NCBI GenBank assembly: GCA_002238605.1
Contig: MPMR01000008.1
Span: 62,001 to 126,000, forward strand
From: BD2-11 clade cluster bacterium bin43
Lineage (GTDB): Bacteria > Gemmatimonadota > Gemmatimonadetes > Longimicrobiales > Gaopeijiaceae
DNA: 64,000 bases
Direction of reading: 5' to 3'
Translations under genes and position numbers: made by a program
The notes under the pieces: generated by a model
What the model saw: the letters and a program-made list of their open reading frames with translations, nothing else
Databases searched by the model: none
What the model was told of the DNA's origin: nothing
In this document: positions 3 through 63,763 of the stretch, in pieces
Layout of the letters: every line of letters starts with the position of its first letter
Numbering within the stretch: position 1 is the stretch's first letter

Positions 3-68
3 ACCCGCCCGTCCTTCTACGATGTCGACCTCGATGCCGACACCGGAAGGGTGATCGGCCTTTTCTGA
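3..68 (+). CDS. C-terminal fragment of an unidentified protein
   Basis: An open frame runs in from the left edge and ends at a TGA at 66-68. The last 21 residues end ...DADTGRVIGLF. A tail with an Asp-rich stretch followed by an aromatic terminal residue would suit a secreted or periplasmic protein, but this is too short to assign. It lies 56 bases before the porin start on the same strand, so the two could be co-transcribed. Confidence 0.35.
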   Translation, partial: TRPSFYDVDLDADTGRVIGLF

Positions 69-56930: not shown

Positions 56931-58133
56931 CTACTCATCGGTCTCGGCCCCCGACAGCCGCGCCACGTGCGCGACATCCTTGTCCCCGCGGCCGCTCAGA
57001 CACACCACGACCGGCCCGTGGCGGGCCAGCTCCGCCCCCGCTTCGAAGACGTGCGCCAGCGCGTGCGCGCTCTCGAGCGCCGGGATGAGGCCCTCCAGCC
57101 GGGAGAGCCGGTGGAAGGCGGCCAGCGCCTGATCATCCGTGACCGTCACGTATTCCGCACGGCCCTCGTCGAGGAGCCACGAGTGCTCCGGTCCCACGCC
57201 CGGGTAGTCGAGGCCGGCGGAAATGGAGTGAGCCGGGGCCACCTGCCCGTCCGCGTCCTGGAGCAGGTAGCTCAGCGACCCGTGCAGCACGCCCGGCCTG
57301 CCCGCGGCCAGGGGCGCCGAGTGCCGGCCGCTGTCCAGCCCCTCGCCTGCCGCCTCGACCCCGACCAGCCGCACATCCCCGAAGGGAACGAAGGCGTGGA
57401 AGATGCCCATGGCGTTGGACCCCCCGCCGACGCACGCCACCACCGAACCGGGGAGCCTGCCCTCGGCGGCCTCCAGCTGCGCCCGCGTCTCCTCCCCGAT
57501 GACGGCCTGGAAATCGCGCACCATGCGCGGGAACGGATCGGGCCCCACCACGGAACCGATGATGTAGTGGGTGTCGCGCACGTTGGTCACCCAGTCGCGG
57601 ATCGCCTCGTTGGTGGCGTCCTTGAGCGTGCACGAACCCGAATCCACCGGACGCACCTCGGCCCCCAGCAGCTCCATGCGATAGACGTTCAGCGCCTGGC
57701 GCTCGACATCCTCGGTCCCCATGTAGACCACGCACTCGAGGTCGAAGAGCGCGCACACGGTCGCGGTGGCCACCCCGTGCTGCCCGGCGCCGGTCTCGGC
57801 GATGATGCGGCGTTTGCCCATCCAGCGCGCCAGCAGCGCCTGCCCGAGGGTGTTGTTGATCTTGTGGGCGCCCGTGTGGTTGAGGTCCTCGCGCTTGAGG
57901 TAGACGGGTCCGGCGCCGATGGCCTCCTCGACGCGGGGGGCGCGGTAGAGGGGGGAGGGCCGGCCGGCGTAGTCCTCGAGCAGGACGCGCAGGTCCGCGG
58001 CGAAGCCCTGGTCGGCCGAGGCATCCCGGTAGGCCGCGGTGAGCTCGTCCAGCGCGGTGATGAGGGTCTCGGGGACGTAGCGGCCTCCGTACGGGCCGAA
58101 GCGGTCCCCGGCCGTGCGTGCACCCGGGGTCAC
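56931..58133 (-). CDS. trpB: Tryptophan synthase beta chain
   Basis: 400 residues. [13 protein letters not shown], the PLP lysine in [45 protein letters not shown] and the [18 protein letters not shown] loop are all present. It joins indole and serine to make tryptophan. The start is GTG 58133, which overlaps the trpF stop (GTGA) and is preceded by GGAGGT within the end of trpF. Confidence 0.97.
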
Positions 58134-58780
58134 GAGCCACCTCCGTTGGCGCGCGCGGCGCGCACGAAGCCGTGCACCTTCGCGGGATCCTTCACGCCCA
58201 CCCGCCGCTCCACTCCGGAGCTGGCGTCGACGACGTGCGGACGCAGGAGCGACACGGCCTCCGCCACGTTGCCGGGGTTGAGGCCCCCCGCGGCCACGAA
58301 GCGCTGCTCCGGGGCGAAGCGGTCGCGGATTCCGGCGAGGCTGCGCCATGGGAAGCGGGTACCCGTGCCGCCCGGCAGCTTCTCGTGCCAGCCATCGAAG
58401 AGGAGCCCGTCGGCGGCGTCTCCGTACCGGTCGAGCGCGCTCAGGGCGTCCGCCTCGTCGCGCACGGGCGCGGCTTTCCACACCGTCCAGGGGCCGCTCG
58501 CGCGCAGGCGGGAGACGGTGTCGGGATCCTCGCGGCCGTGCAGTTGCACCACGGAGGCCCCGGTCTCGCGCGCCGCCGCCACCGCTTCGGCGAGGGTCGG
58601 GTCCACCAGGAGGATCACCAGTGGCAGGTCGGCGGCTTCGGCCACCGCCTGAGCGGTCGGGATGTCAACGCTGCGCGAGAAGCCGGGGGTGAGCACGGTG
58701 CCCACGTAGGTCGCGCCTGCCTGGGCGGCGATGCGGCCGTCCGCCGGGCGGGTGATCCCGCAGATCTTCACCTCGGGCAC
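58130..58780 (-). CDS. trpF: Phosphoribosylanthranilate isomerase (possible C-terminal half of a TrpC-TrpF fusion)
   Basis: 216 residues. [13 protein letters not shown] carries the catalytic Cys, and [19 protein letters not shown] (catalytic Asp) and [14 protein letters not shown] follow. GTG 58780 is the only stand-alone start and has no ribosome site. Reading further upstream in this frame gives an unbroken Ala/Pro/Ser/Glu-rich linker of about 40 residues (ATPPSAQSEPPATAGVPEPP) back to a 12-base C run at which the trpC frame joins with a one-base shift. The native product may therefore be a bifunctional TrpC-TrpF protein. Confidence 0.93.
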
Positions 58781-59759
58781 CTGGGTGGGTCCGGTGGCGG
58801 GAGGTGGCGGTTCGGGGACGCCGGCGGTCGCGGGCGGTTCGGATTGGGCGGAGGGAGGCGTGGCCGGGCGGCCGACGGGGGGGGCGGGCCGGGCGGGGGC
58901 GGGGGGGGGGGGACGGGACGGGACGGGCAGCGGTCGCGGGCGGCGCGTCCCGCCCGGTGGCGGCGGCGGCGCGCGGTCCGCCCCGGACGCCGGTCAGGGC
59001 TGCCACGGCGTCGCCGGGGCGCGGACTGCGCAGGAGCGCCTCACCCATCAGGACGGCGTCCGCGCCCGCGGCACCCACGGTGGCCAGGTCCTCCCGGGTC
59101 GCCAGGCCGCTCTCCGAAACCACCACGACGTCCGGCGGAATGCGGCGAACCAGCTCCAGCGTGACGGCCACGCTCGAGCGGAAGGTGCTCAGATCGCGGT
59201 TGTTGATCCCCACCACGTCGGCGCCGGCCGCGAGCGCCCGCTCCAGCTCCGCGGCGTCGTGGACCTCCACCAGCGCGGCCATCCCGAGCTCGCGCGCCCC
59301 GCTCAGCAGCTCCCCGAGAAGCGGATCCTCGAGGATGCGCACGATGAGCAGGACCGCGTCCGCTCCCGCCGCGCGCGACTCGTCGAGCTGAACCGGGTCG
59401 ACCAGGAAATCCTTGCGCAGAGCGGGCCGCCGCACCCTCGCGCACACCCGGCTCAGATCGTCCAGGCCGCCTCCGAAGTACGTGCGATCCGTCAGCACGC
59501 TGATGGCCGATGCGCCCGAGCGCGCGTATTCCGCGGCCAGATCGGAGGGATCCAGATCCTCGCGAATGGATCCGGCCCCCGGGGAACGCCGCTTGACCTC
59601 CGCGATGACCGCCACTTCCCTCGACGGTTTTCTCAGGGCGGAGCGCAAGTCGCGGGGTGGAGGCGCCGAACGGGCGGCCCGCGCCAACTCCGCCCGCGCG
59701 GACCTCAGAACCCGGACTTCGCTGCGCTTGGTGCGGACGATGCGGTCGAGAATATTCAT
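58665..59759 (-). CDS. trpC: Indole-3-glycerol-phosphate synthase, read through an apparently frameshifted 3' end
   Basis: IGPS core residues 1-262: MNILDRIVRTKRSEVRVLRS, IAEVKRRSPGAGSIRED, ALRKDFLVDPVQLDESRAAG, VEVHDAAELERAL, GINNRDLSTF and VVSESGLATREDL. The barrel ends near GDAVAALTGVRG. As written, the frame then continues about 100 residues as Pro/Arg-rich text (RPIRTARDRRRPRTATSR) and overlaps trpF by 116 bases, which is not credible coding sequence. After the C12 tract at 58901-58912, skipping one base restores a frame continuous with trpF. ATG 59759 is the start. Confidence 0.93.
   Translation of the reverse strand: MNILDRIVRTKRSEVRVLRSARAELARAARSAPPPRDLRSALRKPSREVAVIAEVKRRSPGAGSIREDLDPSDLAAEYARSGASAISVLTDRTYFGGGLDDLSRVCARVRRPALRKDFLVDPVQLDESRAAGADAVLLIVRILEDPLLGELLSGARELGMAALVEVHDAAELERALAAGADVVGINNRDLSTFRSSVAVTLELVRRIPPDVVVVSESGLATREDLATVGAAGADAVLMGEALLRSPRPGDAVAALTGVRGGPRAAAATGRDAPPATAARPVPSPPPRPRPARPPRRPPGHASLRPIRTARDRRRPRTATSRHRTHPGARGEDLRDHPPGGRPHRRPGRRDLRGHRAHPRLLAQR
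58901..58912. repeat. 12-base G/C homopolymer at the trpC-trpF junction
   Basis: Twelve consecutive G on the plus strand (C12 in the coding sense), flanked by further G-rich runs at 58876-58899. It lies exactly where the trpC frame stops looking like protein. Such tracts slip during replication, transcription or sequencing. Loss of one base would give a 542-residue TrpC-TrpF fusion. Confidence 0.9.
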
Positions 59760-59822
59760 GCGCGCGGGAAGGGACGTCGGCCGCCGGGGACGGATGCGAT
59801 TCCGGTTCTTTCGGGGTGCATC

Positions 59823-59866
59823 TTGCGCTTCGGGATACCTTCGGGTAAGTTATTCGGGTCCTGTTC
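59823..59866 (+). promoter_or_regulatory. lexA promoter with two direct-repeat LexA-box candidates
   Basis: TTGCGC (59823-59828), 17 bases and TAAGTT (59846-59851) give a promoter about 45 bases before lexA. CTTC-N7-CTTC (59828-59842) lies in its spacer, and ATTC-N7-GTTC (59852-59866) sits just after the -10. Both have the architecture of the alphaproteobacterial LexA box GTTC-N7-GTTC, and they are exactly 24 bases apart. Autorepression of lexA is usual, so these are the best operator candidates. Confidence 0.5.
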
Positions 59867-59895
59867 GGTCATCACTTTCGCGGAGCGTGCATTCG

Positions 59896-60504
59896 ATGCC
59901 CCTGACCAAGCGACAGAAACAGATCCTGGACTTCATCGAAGGCTACCTGGACGAGTGGGGATACGCGCCCAACTTCGAGGAAATCGCGCATGCCTTCGGA
60001 TACGCTTCCCTGGCCACGGTCCACGAACACCTGAGCAATCTGGAGCGCAAGGGTTACATCCGGAAGGCCTACAACCAAAGTCGCTCCATCGAGATGGTGC
60101 ACCGGGAGACGGGTGCCGGCGTCTTCGCGCTGCCGCTGCTCGGAGCCGTTGCCGCGGGGATGCCCATCGAGGCCGTTCAGGACAACGAAACCCTGTCCGT
60201 TCCCCAGGACATGGTTCCGAGCGGCGCCGAGAGCTACGTCCTGCGGGTCGAGGGCGACTCGATGATCGACGAACAGATTCGCGACGGCGACTACATCGTG
60301 GTCAGCGCGCGACAGGTGGCCCATGAAGGGGAAACGGTGGTCGCCCTTGTCGGCGGCGATTCGGCCACCGTCAAGAAGTTCTATCGCGAGCGGGGCTCCC
60401 GGATCCGGCTGCAGCCGGCCAACGAAGCAATGGAGCCGATCATCGTCGACGCGGCCGATGTCCAGATCCAGGGGGTCGTGGTCGGCGTGATTCGGAAGTA
60501 TTGA
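59896..60504 (+). CDS. lexA: SOS repressor LexA
   Basis: 202 residues. The winged helix-turn-helix (NFEEIAHAFGYASLATVHEH, LSNLERKGYIRK) is followed by the peptidase domain: self-cleavage site GAVAAGMP (Ala-Gly bond), catalytic Ser in VEGDSMIDEQI and catalytic Lys in ATVKKFYRE. It represses DNA-damage genes and cleaves itself on RecA filaments. ATG 59896 gives the standard N-terminus PLTKRQKQILDFI. It is divergent from trpC. Confidence 0.97.
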   Translation: MPLTKRQKQILDFIEGYLDEWGYAPNFEEIAHAFGYASLATVHEHLSNLERKGYIRKAYNQSRSIEMVHRETGAGVFALPLLGAVAAGMPIEAVQDNETLSVPQDMVPSGAESYVLRVEGDSMIDEQIRDGDYIVVSARQVAHEGETVVALVGGDSATVKKFYRERGSRIRLQPANEAMEPIIVDAADVQIQGVVVGVIRKY

Positions 60505-60850
60505 GGCTTGATCCACGGATAATCGACCGAGACGGGCCGGCTCCTGGGGAGTCGGGCCGAAGTTCGGTCACCTGACCGGCCGCGGCCGGAGGGAGGCGAG
60601 AATGAGGATTCCGTTTGCGGTAGGCAGACTGAAGGGCGACTTCACGGAAGTGGTGCTGGTGGGCGAAAACTGCGGGCCGGACGGCGTACCATTCCTTCGC
60701 GGGGCACGGATGACGCGCACGCCCGCTCGATTCCGGCCCCGTCCCGCCGGAGCGCGAATCGGCCGGCTTGAGGATCGCGATGCCTGTCGTCGCTGACCGG
60801 GACGGACGACGTGGGCAGATCGGCGGGCGGGGTACTGAGGCGCGCGCGCC
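60505..60850. other. lexA-trpD intergenic region with an inverted repeat
   Basis: This 346-base gap lies between the convergent lexA and trpD ends. CGGTCA-CC-TGACCG (60565-60578) directly precedes the palindromic GGCCGCGGCC (60578-60587). A weaker hairpin, GGCCGGCTCC with GGGAGTCGGGCC, spans about 60535-60557 and could end lexA transcription. The gap also holds the small open frame listed separately. No RNA gene is recognised. Confidence 0.35.
60602..60796 (+). CDS. Possible small open reading frame
   Basis: 64 codons starting MRIPFAVGRLKGDFTEVVLV behind a strong GGAGGGAGG ribosome site. The first 35 residues look protein-like, while the rest is Arg/Pro/Ala-rich and resembles non-coding translation. 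No family is recognised. It may be a real short gene whose true end was shifted, or chance. Confidence 0.25.
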   Translation: MRIPFAVGRLKGDFTEVVLVGENCGPDGVPFLRGARMTRTPARFRPRPAGARIGRLEDRDACRR

Positions 60851-61897
60851 TCAGGTGCCGCGGGCGCGCGTGGCTTCGCGGAGTTCCGCAAGCTTGCTGG
60901 TCGCGAGCCCGCGGTCGATCGCTTCGGCCGCCATGGCAACCCCCTCCGAAAGGGAGTCCGCCAGACCCGCGACGTAGATGGTGGCGCCCGCGTTGACGAG
61001 GACGAACGAACGCGCCGAGTCCCGGCGGCGGCCTTCCAGCACATCCACGATCACGACCGCGTTTTCGCCGGGAGTTCCGCCGGCGAGACCCTCCAGGCTC
61101 TCCGGCTCCAGACCCAGGTCGGCCGGGGTTACGGGGTAGGTGGTTATCTCGCCGTCGCGAAGATCGGACACGGTGGTGGTCCCCACCGGGCTCAGTTCGT
61201 CCATTCCCGGCTCGCCGTGGACCACCAGGGCGCGGCGGTGGCCGAGTTCACGCAGCGCGGGCGCGATCAACTCCAGCCAGGAGGGGTCGGAAACGCCGAC
61301 CAGCTGGCGGGTTACCCCGGCCGGGTTGGTCAGCGGCCCGAGCAGGTTCATGATGGTCGGGACCGCCAGTTCCGCGCGCACCGGACCAACGTGGCGCATG
61401 GCGGGATGCAGAAGCGGCGCGAACATGAAGACGATTCCGGTTTCCGCCAGCACCCGGCTCATGTCGTCCGGTGTCAGCTCGATGCGGACCCCGAGCGCTT
61501 CCAGGACGTCGGCGCTCCCGCTCTGGGACGTGAAGGAGCGGTTGCCGTGCTTTGCGACCCGCACGCCGGCCGCCGCCGCGGTCAGAGCGGCCGCGGTGGA
61601 CACGTTGAAGGTGCGTACGCTGCCGCCCCCGGTGCCGCAGGTGTCGACCAGCTCGTGCGTCCGTTCCGACTTCACCGGACGCATTGCTCCGCGAAGCGCG
61701 CGCACGCCGCCGGCGATTTCGGACGGAACCAGCCCCTTGGTGCGGAGCGCGATCAGGAAGGCGGCCATCGCCACGGGGGTCGCTTCCCCGGACATGATGG
61801 TCGCGAACGCGCCTTCGGCCTCCGTCGCGGTCAGGCTCGCGCCTTCGGACACCCGGCCAATGAGGGGGGTGAGGTCCAGCTTCGTTTCGGAGGTCAT
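60851..61897 (-). CDS. trpD: Anthranilate phosphoribosyltransferase
   Basis: 348 residues. The N-terminal helical part has EGAFATIMSGEATPVAMAAF. The catalytic part has VDTCGTGGGSVRTFNVSTAA, VAKHGNRSFTSQSGSADVLE (phosphate and Mg sites) and FAPLLHPAMRHVGPVR. It joins anthranilate to PRPP. It is separated from the other trp genes by lexA and has its own upstream tandem promoter-like repeats. trpE and trpG are not in the window. Confidence 0.96.
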   Translation of the reverse strand: MTSETKLDLTPLIGRVSEGASLTATEAEGAFATIMSGEATPVAMAAFLIALRTKGLVPSEIAGGVRALRGAMRPVKSERTHELVDTCGTGGGSVRTFNVSTAAALTAAAAGVRVAKHGNRSFTSQSGSADVLEALGVRIELTPDDMSRVLAETGIVFMFAPLLHPAMRHVGPVRAELAVPTIMNLLGPLTNPAGVTRQLVGVSDPSWLELIAPALRELGHRRALVVHGEPGMDELSPVGTTTVSDLRDGEITTYPVTPADLGLEPESLEGLAGGTPGENAVVIVDVLEGRRRDSARSFVLVNAGATIYVAGLADSLSEGVAMAAEAIDRGLATSKLAELREATRARGT

Positions 61898-61940
61898 GGT
61901 CGTGTCCGGGTCGGCGGCGGCGCGGGAGAGGGCTCGGGCG

Positions 61941-61969
61941 ATGGTACCAAGCGGGCCGTACCCGGTCAA
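61941..61969 (-). promoter_or_regulatory. trpD promoter candidate P1 (proximal repeat copy)
   Basis: On the minus strand, TTGACC (61964-61969), exactly 17 bases, TACCAT (61941-61946). The predicted start is about 35-40 bases before the trpD ATG at 61897. Confidence 0.55.
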
Positions 61970-61977
61970 CGCGGGCG

Positions 61978-62006
61978 ATGGTACCAGGCGGGCCGTACGG
62001 GGTCAA
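61978..62006 (-). promoter_or_regulatory. trpD promoter candidate P2 (distal repeat copy)
   Basis: On the minus strand, TTGACC (62001-62006), exactly 17 bases, TACCAT (61978-61983). It is identical in -35 and -10 to P1, 37 bases further upstream, produced by the tandem duplication. Confidence 0.55.
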
Positions 62007-62150
62007 CGCGGCGATGGAAGTTTTGCGCCGTCCTCCCGTCGCACGGGACGGGCGAGGCCGGGCGGGGGAATCCCCGGGATGGCACCGGAGCCTGCAGAAT
62101 GGAGCCCGGATGTTGAGTTGCGCCTCCGGAAATCCTAGTTTCCCCGCGTC

Positions 62151-63110
62151 ATGGCCCGAGGACAACGCCGCTTCCGACTCACGCTGCACTACGACGGGAC
62201 CCATTTCTTCGGCTGGCAGAAGCAGCCGGAAGTGCGCACGGTGCAGGGTGAGCTGCAGGCCACCCTCGAGCGGCTTACCGGCGAGCACCGCGCGGTGACG
62301 GCGGCGGGCAGAACCGACCGGGGGGTGCACGCCACCGGCCAGGTGGTCGCCCTCGTCCTGCCGCGGCGCTGGTCCGCCGCCACCCTTCGGCGGGCGCTCA
62401 ACGCCAGGCTGCCCGGGGACATCTGGGTGGCGGACGCCCGGGCCGCTCCGCCCGCCTTCCACCCGCGCTACGACGCCACGGCGCGCGAGTACGGATACCG
62501 GCTGGGGTTCACCGCGGCGGCCCGCTCGCCCTTCCACCGGGCGTGGTGCTGGCCTCTCGCGCGCCTCGCCGGTGACACCGCCTCGACCACGGCGGACCTG
62601 GATGTCGAGGCCCTGCACGCGGCTGCCGCGCTCCTGCCGGGCGAGAAGTCCTTCGCCGCCTTCGCCCGCGCCGGCCAGGAACACCGGGGAGACCGCTGTA
62701 CCGTCACGGAGGCGCGCTGGGCCGCCTGGGAGCTCGGCATGGAGTTCACCATCGTCGCCGACCGGTTCTTGCACCACATGGTCCGCTACCTGGTGGGCAC
62801 CATGGTCGACATCGCCCGCGGCCGCCGGCCGCTCGACGACATGCGCGCGATGCTCGAGGGCAACCGGGACGGCCTCGTCACGTCGCCGCCCGCTCCCGCG
62901 ACGGGCCTCTTCCTGCGTCGAGTGAGCTATCCGGCGCAGACGGTCGCGCGCACTTCGGCGGTCTCCGACGCTGCCGCGACAGAAACAGACGACGCCGCGA
63001 CGCCGGCCGACGCCCGTCCGCGATCCCCGCGAAGCGTCCCGTTCGCCGACCTCGCCCTGTTAGATTCCGACACCGACCGCCCACCCGCAGGGAGCGCCAA
63101 CCACCCATGA
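62151..63110 (+). CDS. truA: tRNA pseudouridine(38-40) synthase TruA
   Basis: 319 residues. RLTLHYDGTHFFGWQKQPEVRT-type N-terminus (read in parts as LHYDGTHFFGWQKQ), catalytic Asp in TAAGRTDRGVHATGQ, ATAREYGYRL and the C-terminal HHMVRYLVGTMVDIARGR. It isomerises uridines in the anticodon arm. The C-terminal 45 residues are Ala/Thr/Asp-rich and extend past the usual end. Its stop overlaps the next gene (ATGA). Confidence 0.95.
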   Translation: MARGQRRFRLTLHYDGTHFFGWQKQPEVRTVQGELQATLERLTGEHRAVTAAGRTDRGVHATGQVVALVLPRRWSAATLRRALNARLPGDIWVADARAAPPAFHPRYDATAREYGYRLGFTAAARSPFHRAWCWPLARLAGDTASTTADLDVEALHAAAALLPGEKSFAAFARAGQEHRGDRCTVTEARWAAWELGMEFTIVADRFLHHMVRYLVGTMVDIARGRRPLDDMRAMLEGNRDGLVTSPPAPATGLFLRRVSYPAQTVARTSAVSDAAATETDDAATPADARPRSPRSVPFADLALLDSDTDRPPAGSANHP

Positions 63111-63763
63111 AGATCTTCCTCGACACCGCCGACCTGGGTGAGATCCGCCGCGCCGCCGCCGCCGGCCTCATCGATGGCGTAACCACCAACCCCTCCCTGC
63201 TGGCCAAGGTGGCCGGCGACCGCGACCCGATGGAGATCTTCCTCGAGATCTGCGAAGCCATCGACGGCCCGGTTAGCGCCGAGGTCGTCGGAGTGGACAA
63301 GGCGATCATGATCGACGAGGGCACCCGGCTGGCCGCCATCCACCCCAACATCGCGGTCAAGGTGCCCCTCACCGAGGACGGCCTGGTGGCGTGCCGCGAG
63401 CTCAGCTCGCGCGACATCCCGGTCAACGTCACCCTGTGTTTTTCCGCTCCTCAGGCGCTGCTCGCCGCCAAGGCGGGGGCCGCGTACATCTCGCCCTTCA
63501 TCGGACGGCTGGACGACATCTCCCACGACGGCATGGAGCTGATCCGCCAGATCCGCGTCATCTACGACAACTACGGCATGCAGACGGAGATCCTGGCCGC
63601 CTCCCTCAGGCATCCGCGCCACGTCGTGGAGTCGCTGGAGATGGGCGCGGACGTGGCCACCCTGCCGCCGGGCGTCCTGTACAAGCTGATCCGCCACCCG
63701 CTGACCGACCTCGGGCTGGCCGCTTTTCTGGCCGACTGGGAGAAACTGGGACGTGACCTCTAG
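63107..63763 (+). CDS. fsa: Transaldolase-like fructose-6-phosphate aldolase family protein
   Basis: 218 residues, the short (TalC/Fsa) form. MKIFLDTADLGEIRRA, GVTTNPSLLAK, the Schiff-base lysine in NIAVKVPLTEDGL, NVTLCFSAPQALLAAKAGA and SPFIGRLDDI are diagnostic. Members act either as transaldolase or as fructose-6-phosphate aldolase; sequence reading alone does not decide. It is coupled to truA upstream and overlaps purB downstream by 11 bases. Confidence 0.92.
   Translation: MKIFLDTADLGEIRRAAAAGLIDGVTTNPSLLAKVAGDRDPMEIFLEICEAIDGPVSAEVVGVDKAIMIDEGTRLAAIHPNIAVKVPLTEDGLVACRELSSRDIPVNVTLCFSAPQALLAAKAGAAYISPFIGRLDDISHDGMELIRQIRVIYDNYGMQTEILAASLRHPRHVVESLEMGADVATLPPGVLYKLIRHPLTDLGLAAFLADWEKLGRDL

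Follow-up and report, generated by a model that had tools for sequence, protein, structure and literature searches.

The window analysed here is a stretch of 64,000 nucleotides from BD2-11 clade cluster bacterium bin43 (Gemmatimonadota: Gaopeijiaceae; assembly GCA_002238605.1, contig MPMR01000008.1, positions 62,001 to 126,000 of the forward strand). Near its end lies trpD, the gene of anthranilate phosphoribosyltransferase, which is followed downstream on the same strand by trpC, trpF and trpB, with an inverted lexA between trpD and trpC. The gene order is the same in a relative of the same genus (G004), where an apparent trpA follows trpB, and trpE is located on a different contig from trpD. 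The statement of a preliminary description of this DNA that trpD has been separated from the rest of the pathway thus holds in part: an inverted lexA stands between trpD and trpC-F-B(-A), as in G004, and trpE is found elsewhere. The promoter-like sequence of the divergent gene truA ends only 9 bases before the ATG, which suggests a leaderless or nearly leaderless mRNA. The features of the locus are listed in Table 1.

Table 1. Features of the trpD upstream region and its surroundings (positions refer to the window).
Feature	Position	Strand	Details
trpD, anthranilate phosphoribosyltransferase	60851-61897	-	ATG at 61897; 348 aa; open reading frame; NCBIfam TIGR01245, 404.5 bits (cut-off 199)
Repeat copy 1 (trpD-proximal), ancestral promoter unit	61935-61971	-	-35 TTGACC 61964-61969; -10 TACCAT 61941-61946; predicted +1 A 61934
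Repeat copy 2 (distal), derived duplicate	61972-62008	-	-35 TTGACC 62001-62006; -10 TACCAT 61978-61983; 3 spacer changes
CCATCGCCG, ancestral flank resembling the unit's end CCATCGCCCG	62009-62017	-	aligns with the flank of single-unit G004
truA promoter-like sequence and short leader, divergent, outside the repeat	62113-62150	+	TTGAGT-17-TAGTTT; conserved where truA adjoins trpD

The repeat begins 37 bp upstream of trpD and consists of a 37-bp unit in direct tandem, the copies being identical at 34 of 37 positions (92%). The preliminary description had noticed this duplication, and it was recovered both by a repeat search and by Tandem Repeats Finder (period 37, 2.3 copies, 61935-62017). Each copy carries TTGACC-17-TACCAT on the minus strand, reading into trpD, and the spacing of 17 that had been given for both was confirmed. 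The duplication had also been said to create two identical promoters, which is correct for the hexamers and their spacing, with the cores 37 bp apart, and incorrect for the units as a whole, which differ at three positions, all within the 17-bp spacer. What had been taken for the trace of a third copy is the segment at 62009-62017, which aligns with the flank CCACAGCCG upstream of the only copy in G004; because that genome has a single unit, the segment represents ancestral flank.

Within the region from 56 to 64 kb, the two sites are the only sigma-70-like matches, compared with 0.5 expected in shuffled sequences. Over the whole window there are two matches to TTGAC-N18-TANNNT (0.13 expected), and TTGAC-N18-TACCAT is found in the 4.47-Mb genome at just these two sites, with no occurrence of the reversed control pattern. 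Dispersal of the repeat through the genome had been named as an observation that would speak against a promoter duplication; a 100-bp query across the repeat region matched only itself in the genome, which rules out a scattered repetitive element.

The promoter was compared among 10 other genomes of the genus that contain trpD, all of them metagenome-assembled and each representing one species. Exactly one TTGACC-17-TACCAT was present in every one of them, located 72-76 bp upstream of the trpD ATG. Across the 11 genomes, all 12 hexamer columns were invariant versus 5 of the 17 spacer columns (Fisher p = 1.2e-4), and this invariance is not for lack of time, since the fourfold sites of trpD in the relatives diverge from the window's genome by 26-33%. 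The invariant block also takes in GG before the -10 and CGCC after it, and G003 and G007 retain the promoter although their upstream neighbour is not truA. Beyond the genus, TTGAC-17..19-TANNNT was found in 10 of 47 regions upstream of trpD, almost exclusively from members of the Gemmatimonadota, and the reversed control in none. The records of four loci (L078, L079, L080 and L084) are titled 'Gammaproteobacteria bacterium'; these are genomes of the present Gemmatimonadota genus and are probably mislabelled.

These data support the earlier view that the promoter of trpD lies within the repeat unit; each of the 10 relatives has conserved one copy of it. Both copies agree with the sigma-70 consensus at 9 of 12 positions and have the 17-bp spacing, and in the relatives the hexamers and the spacing are more conserved than the spacer sequence, as in promoters of the sigma-70 type. 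The 37-bp unit would accordingly correspond to the core promoter of trpD, with TTGACC as -35, a 17-bp spacer and TACCAT as -10. Judged from its position, transcription is likely to start at 61934, on the A of GAGC, some 37 bp ahead of the ATG. A literature search for transcription start sites and a promoter motif in Gemmatimonas yielded no paper; through the comparison of relatives, TTGACC-17-TACCAT is supported as a promoter in an uncultured genus of Gemmatimonadota. The motif was also considered as a signature of a trp regulon and was rejected as such, as it is absent upstream of trpE and trpC and elsewhere in the window's genome.

When the window's genome is aligned to G004, it has one additional stretch of precisely 37 bp, and the two sequences otherwise agree through promoter and leader. 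Copy 1 has the same 29-bp promoter sequence as the only copy in G004 and retains the conserved distance of 72 bp to the ATG. A second copy was seen only in the window's genome, all 10 relatives being single-copy, and the duplication is for that reason most simply read as a derived gain in the lineage of the window, with the single-copy state as ancestral. The trpD promoter is ancestral to the genus as a single 37-bp core and was later duplicated in tandem. The upstream flank CCATCGCC-G resembles the end of the unit, CCATCGCCCG, and the most likely mechanism is replication slippage between these short imperfect direct repeats; the arrangement R1-X-R2-X-R2, as read from the sequence, is what slippage between R1 and R2 would be expected to leave behind. 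Since other short tandem duplications and arrays are common in the window (Tandem Repeats Finder), no selection is needed to explain the event. The 30-bp duplication in Bordetella BP3410 (PMC8546581) is comparable in that it too is short, direct, confined to one lineage whose relatives have a single copy, and potentially reversible, but it lies in coding sequence and inactivates the protein, whereas the trpD repeat is intergenic and covers a promoter.

With two intact cores in the same direction, the region has the layout of tandem promoters, and we consider it probable that the duplication yields two working trpD promoters, both of which would bind RNA polymerase. A study of tandem promoters in E. 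coli found occlusion at start-site distances of up to 35 bp and, at larger distances, an output between that of one and that of two promoters (PMC8830795). The predicted start sites of the trpD promoters are 37 bp apart, which would place them just past the limit of about 35 bp, so that an output between one and two promoters' worth is expected. By analogy, trpD transcription would be raised at most about twofold by the two copies. The native E. coli pairs that the study modelled resemble the trpD pair in that two promoters of the same direction are close enough for polymerase interference (37 bp here versus the 35-bp occlusion step), but they are not described as duplications of one sequence, whereas both trpD cores derive from one promoter. 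With engineered tandem core-tac promoters (MCPtacs; Li et al. 2012; PMC3293061), whose core measures 41 bp, expression rose step by step as copies were added, up to five. They share with the present case the direct tandem arrangement of core promoters before a gene and a nearly identical unit length, but are built from an engineered strong promoter and carried on a plasmid or the chromosome of E. coli, whereas the trpD pair is natural, has two copies with a weak consensus and belongs to a GC-rich genome.

The conserved GAGC found downstream of the native -10 region is missing from the distal copy, which also has a C, not a purine, at the position equivalent to +1, for which reason the native proximal copy is probably dominant. 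All three differences between the copies are in copy 2, and one of them replaces a spacer G that all other genomes share; together with the missing GAGC and the C at +1, this means that copy 2 may be weaker, silent or drifting. In its extreme form, this would be a neutral slippage duplication in which trpD is transcribed from copy 1 only and copy 2, an inactive passenger, drifts towards loss, a reading that also fits the restriction of the second copy to one genome and the several other short tandem arrays in the window, and that we regard as possible but rather unlikely. It has to be weighed against the intact hexamers and 17-bp spacing of copy 2, which count for little because three changes placed at random would leave both hexamers untouched in about 30% of cases (by arithmetic), and against the breakpoints, which spare both cores, an outcome of only about 9 among the 65 ways in which a 37-bp tandem duplication can overlap the promoter. 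Two functional promoters, the proximal one probably dominant, remain the preferred reading. That the repeat serves as an adaptive, reversible copy-number switch, by which slippage in populations would set the level of trpD independently of trpE and trpC-F-B-A, appears very improbable. The copy number, which the preliminary description supposed could tune trpD, was one in all of the 10 relatives, which are sister species represented by one genome each.

The preliminary description had further suggested that the palindrome TGGTACCA, which overlaps the -10 in both copies, may be an operator doubled by the duplication; such an operator would be bound by a tryptophan-responsive repressor. GGTACC is indeed invariant in the genus, but the -10 together with its upstream flank suffices to explain this, and the outermost T of TGGTACCA is not constant, being replaced by C in G006 and by A in G002. 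The palindrome, which was to be looked for upstream of other trp genes, is absent there from both trpE and trpC across the genus. Of its 28 sites in the genome, the first 15 were examined (two of them the repeat copies) and proved to lie mostly in long open frames, the coding sites commonly reading TGG TAC CA (Trp-Tyr-His/Gln). The TrpR repressor family was found in none of the 11 genomes by a search that detects TrpR in E. coli. Neither the conserved, shared palindrome nor the cognate repressor of a TrpR-type operator was thus found, and the operator reading was rejected as very improbable. Control at the RNA level (attenuator, T-box) is not indicated by Rfam, which gave no match of note in 58000-63200.

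An error of assembly is a highly improbable source of the repeat. Short tandem repeats can be mis-assembled, the relatives are metagenome-assembled and the window's genome (G000) is itself metagenome-derived and fragmented (65 contigs), but the locus is well inside a contig of 161 kb, and the three differences between the copies are not what would result from a mere collapse or expansion in assembly. Hardly credible is the reading of the TTG of TTGACC as the start codon of an N-terminally extended TrpD, with the conservation being that of coding sequence: an open frame joins TTG to ATG in 9 of the 11 genomes, but the 76-nt distance in G003 and G001 breaks it while the block is still kept, the would-be third codon positions in GGTACCATCGCC are invariant, and the TrpD family match begins after the ATG.

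The change at trpD is a small and ordinary kind of mutation, a genuine derived duplication of a genuine promoter, and it probably does no more than alter the expression of trpD modestly. It offers a clean natural case of a core promoter that was duplicated whole, with single-copy relatives and visible slippage homology.

Two further observations concern the genes downstream of trpD. A small open frame just downstream of lexA (60602-60796, plus strand; MRIPFAVGRLKGDFTEVVLVGE...) is conserved in 7 of the 8 relatives compared, with differences mostly at third codon positions (e.g. 4/2/15 versus G003); it has no Pfam match and probably encodes a small protein, of about 46-56 aa, that is missing from the annotation. 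The divergent region between lexA and trpC (about 59760-59880) contains several TTCGG (CCGAA) repeats that are conserved in the six genomes aligned and are possibly LexA operators for lexA and, incidentally, trpC.
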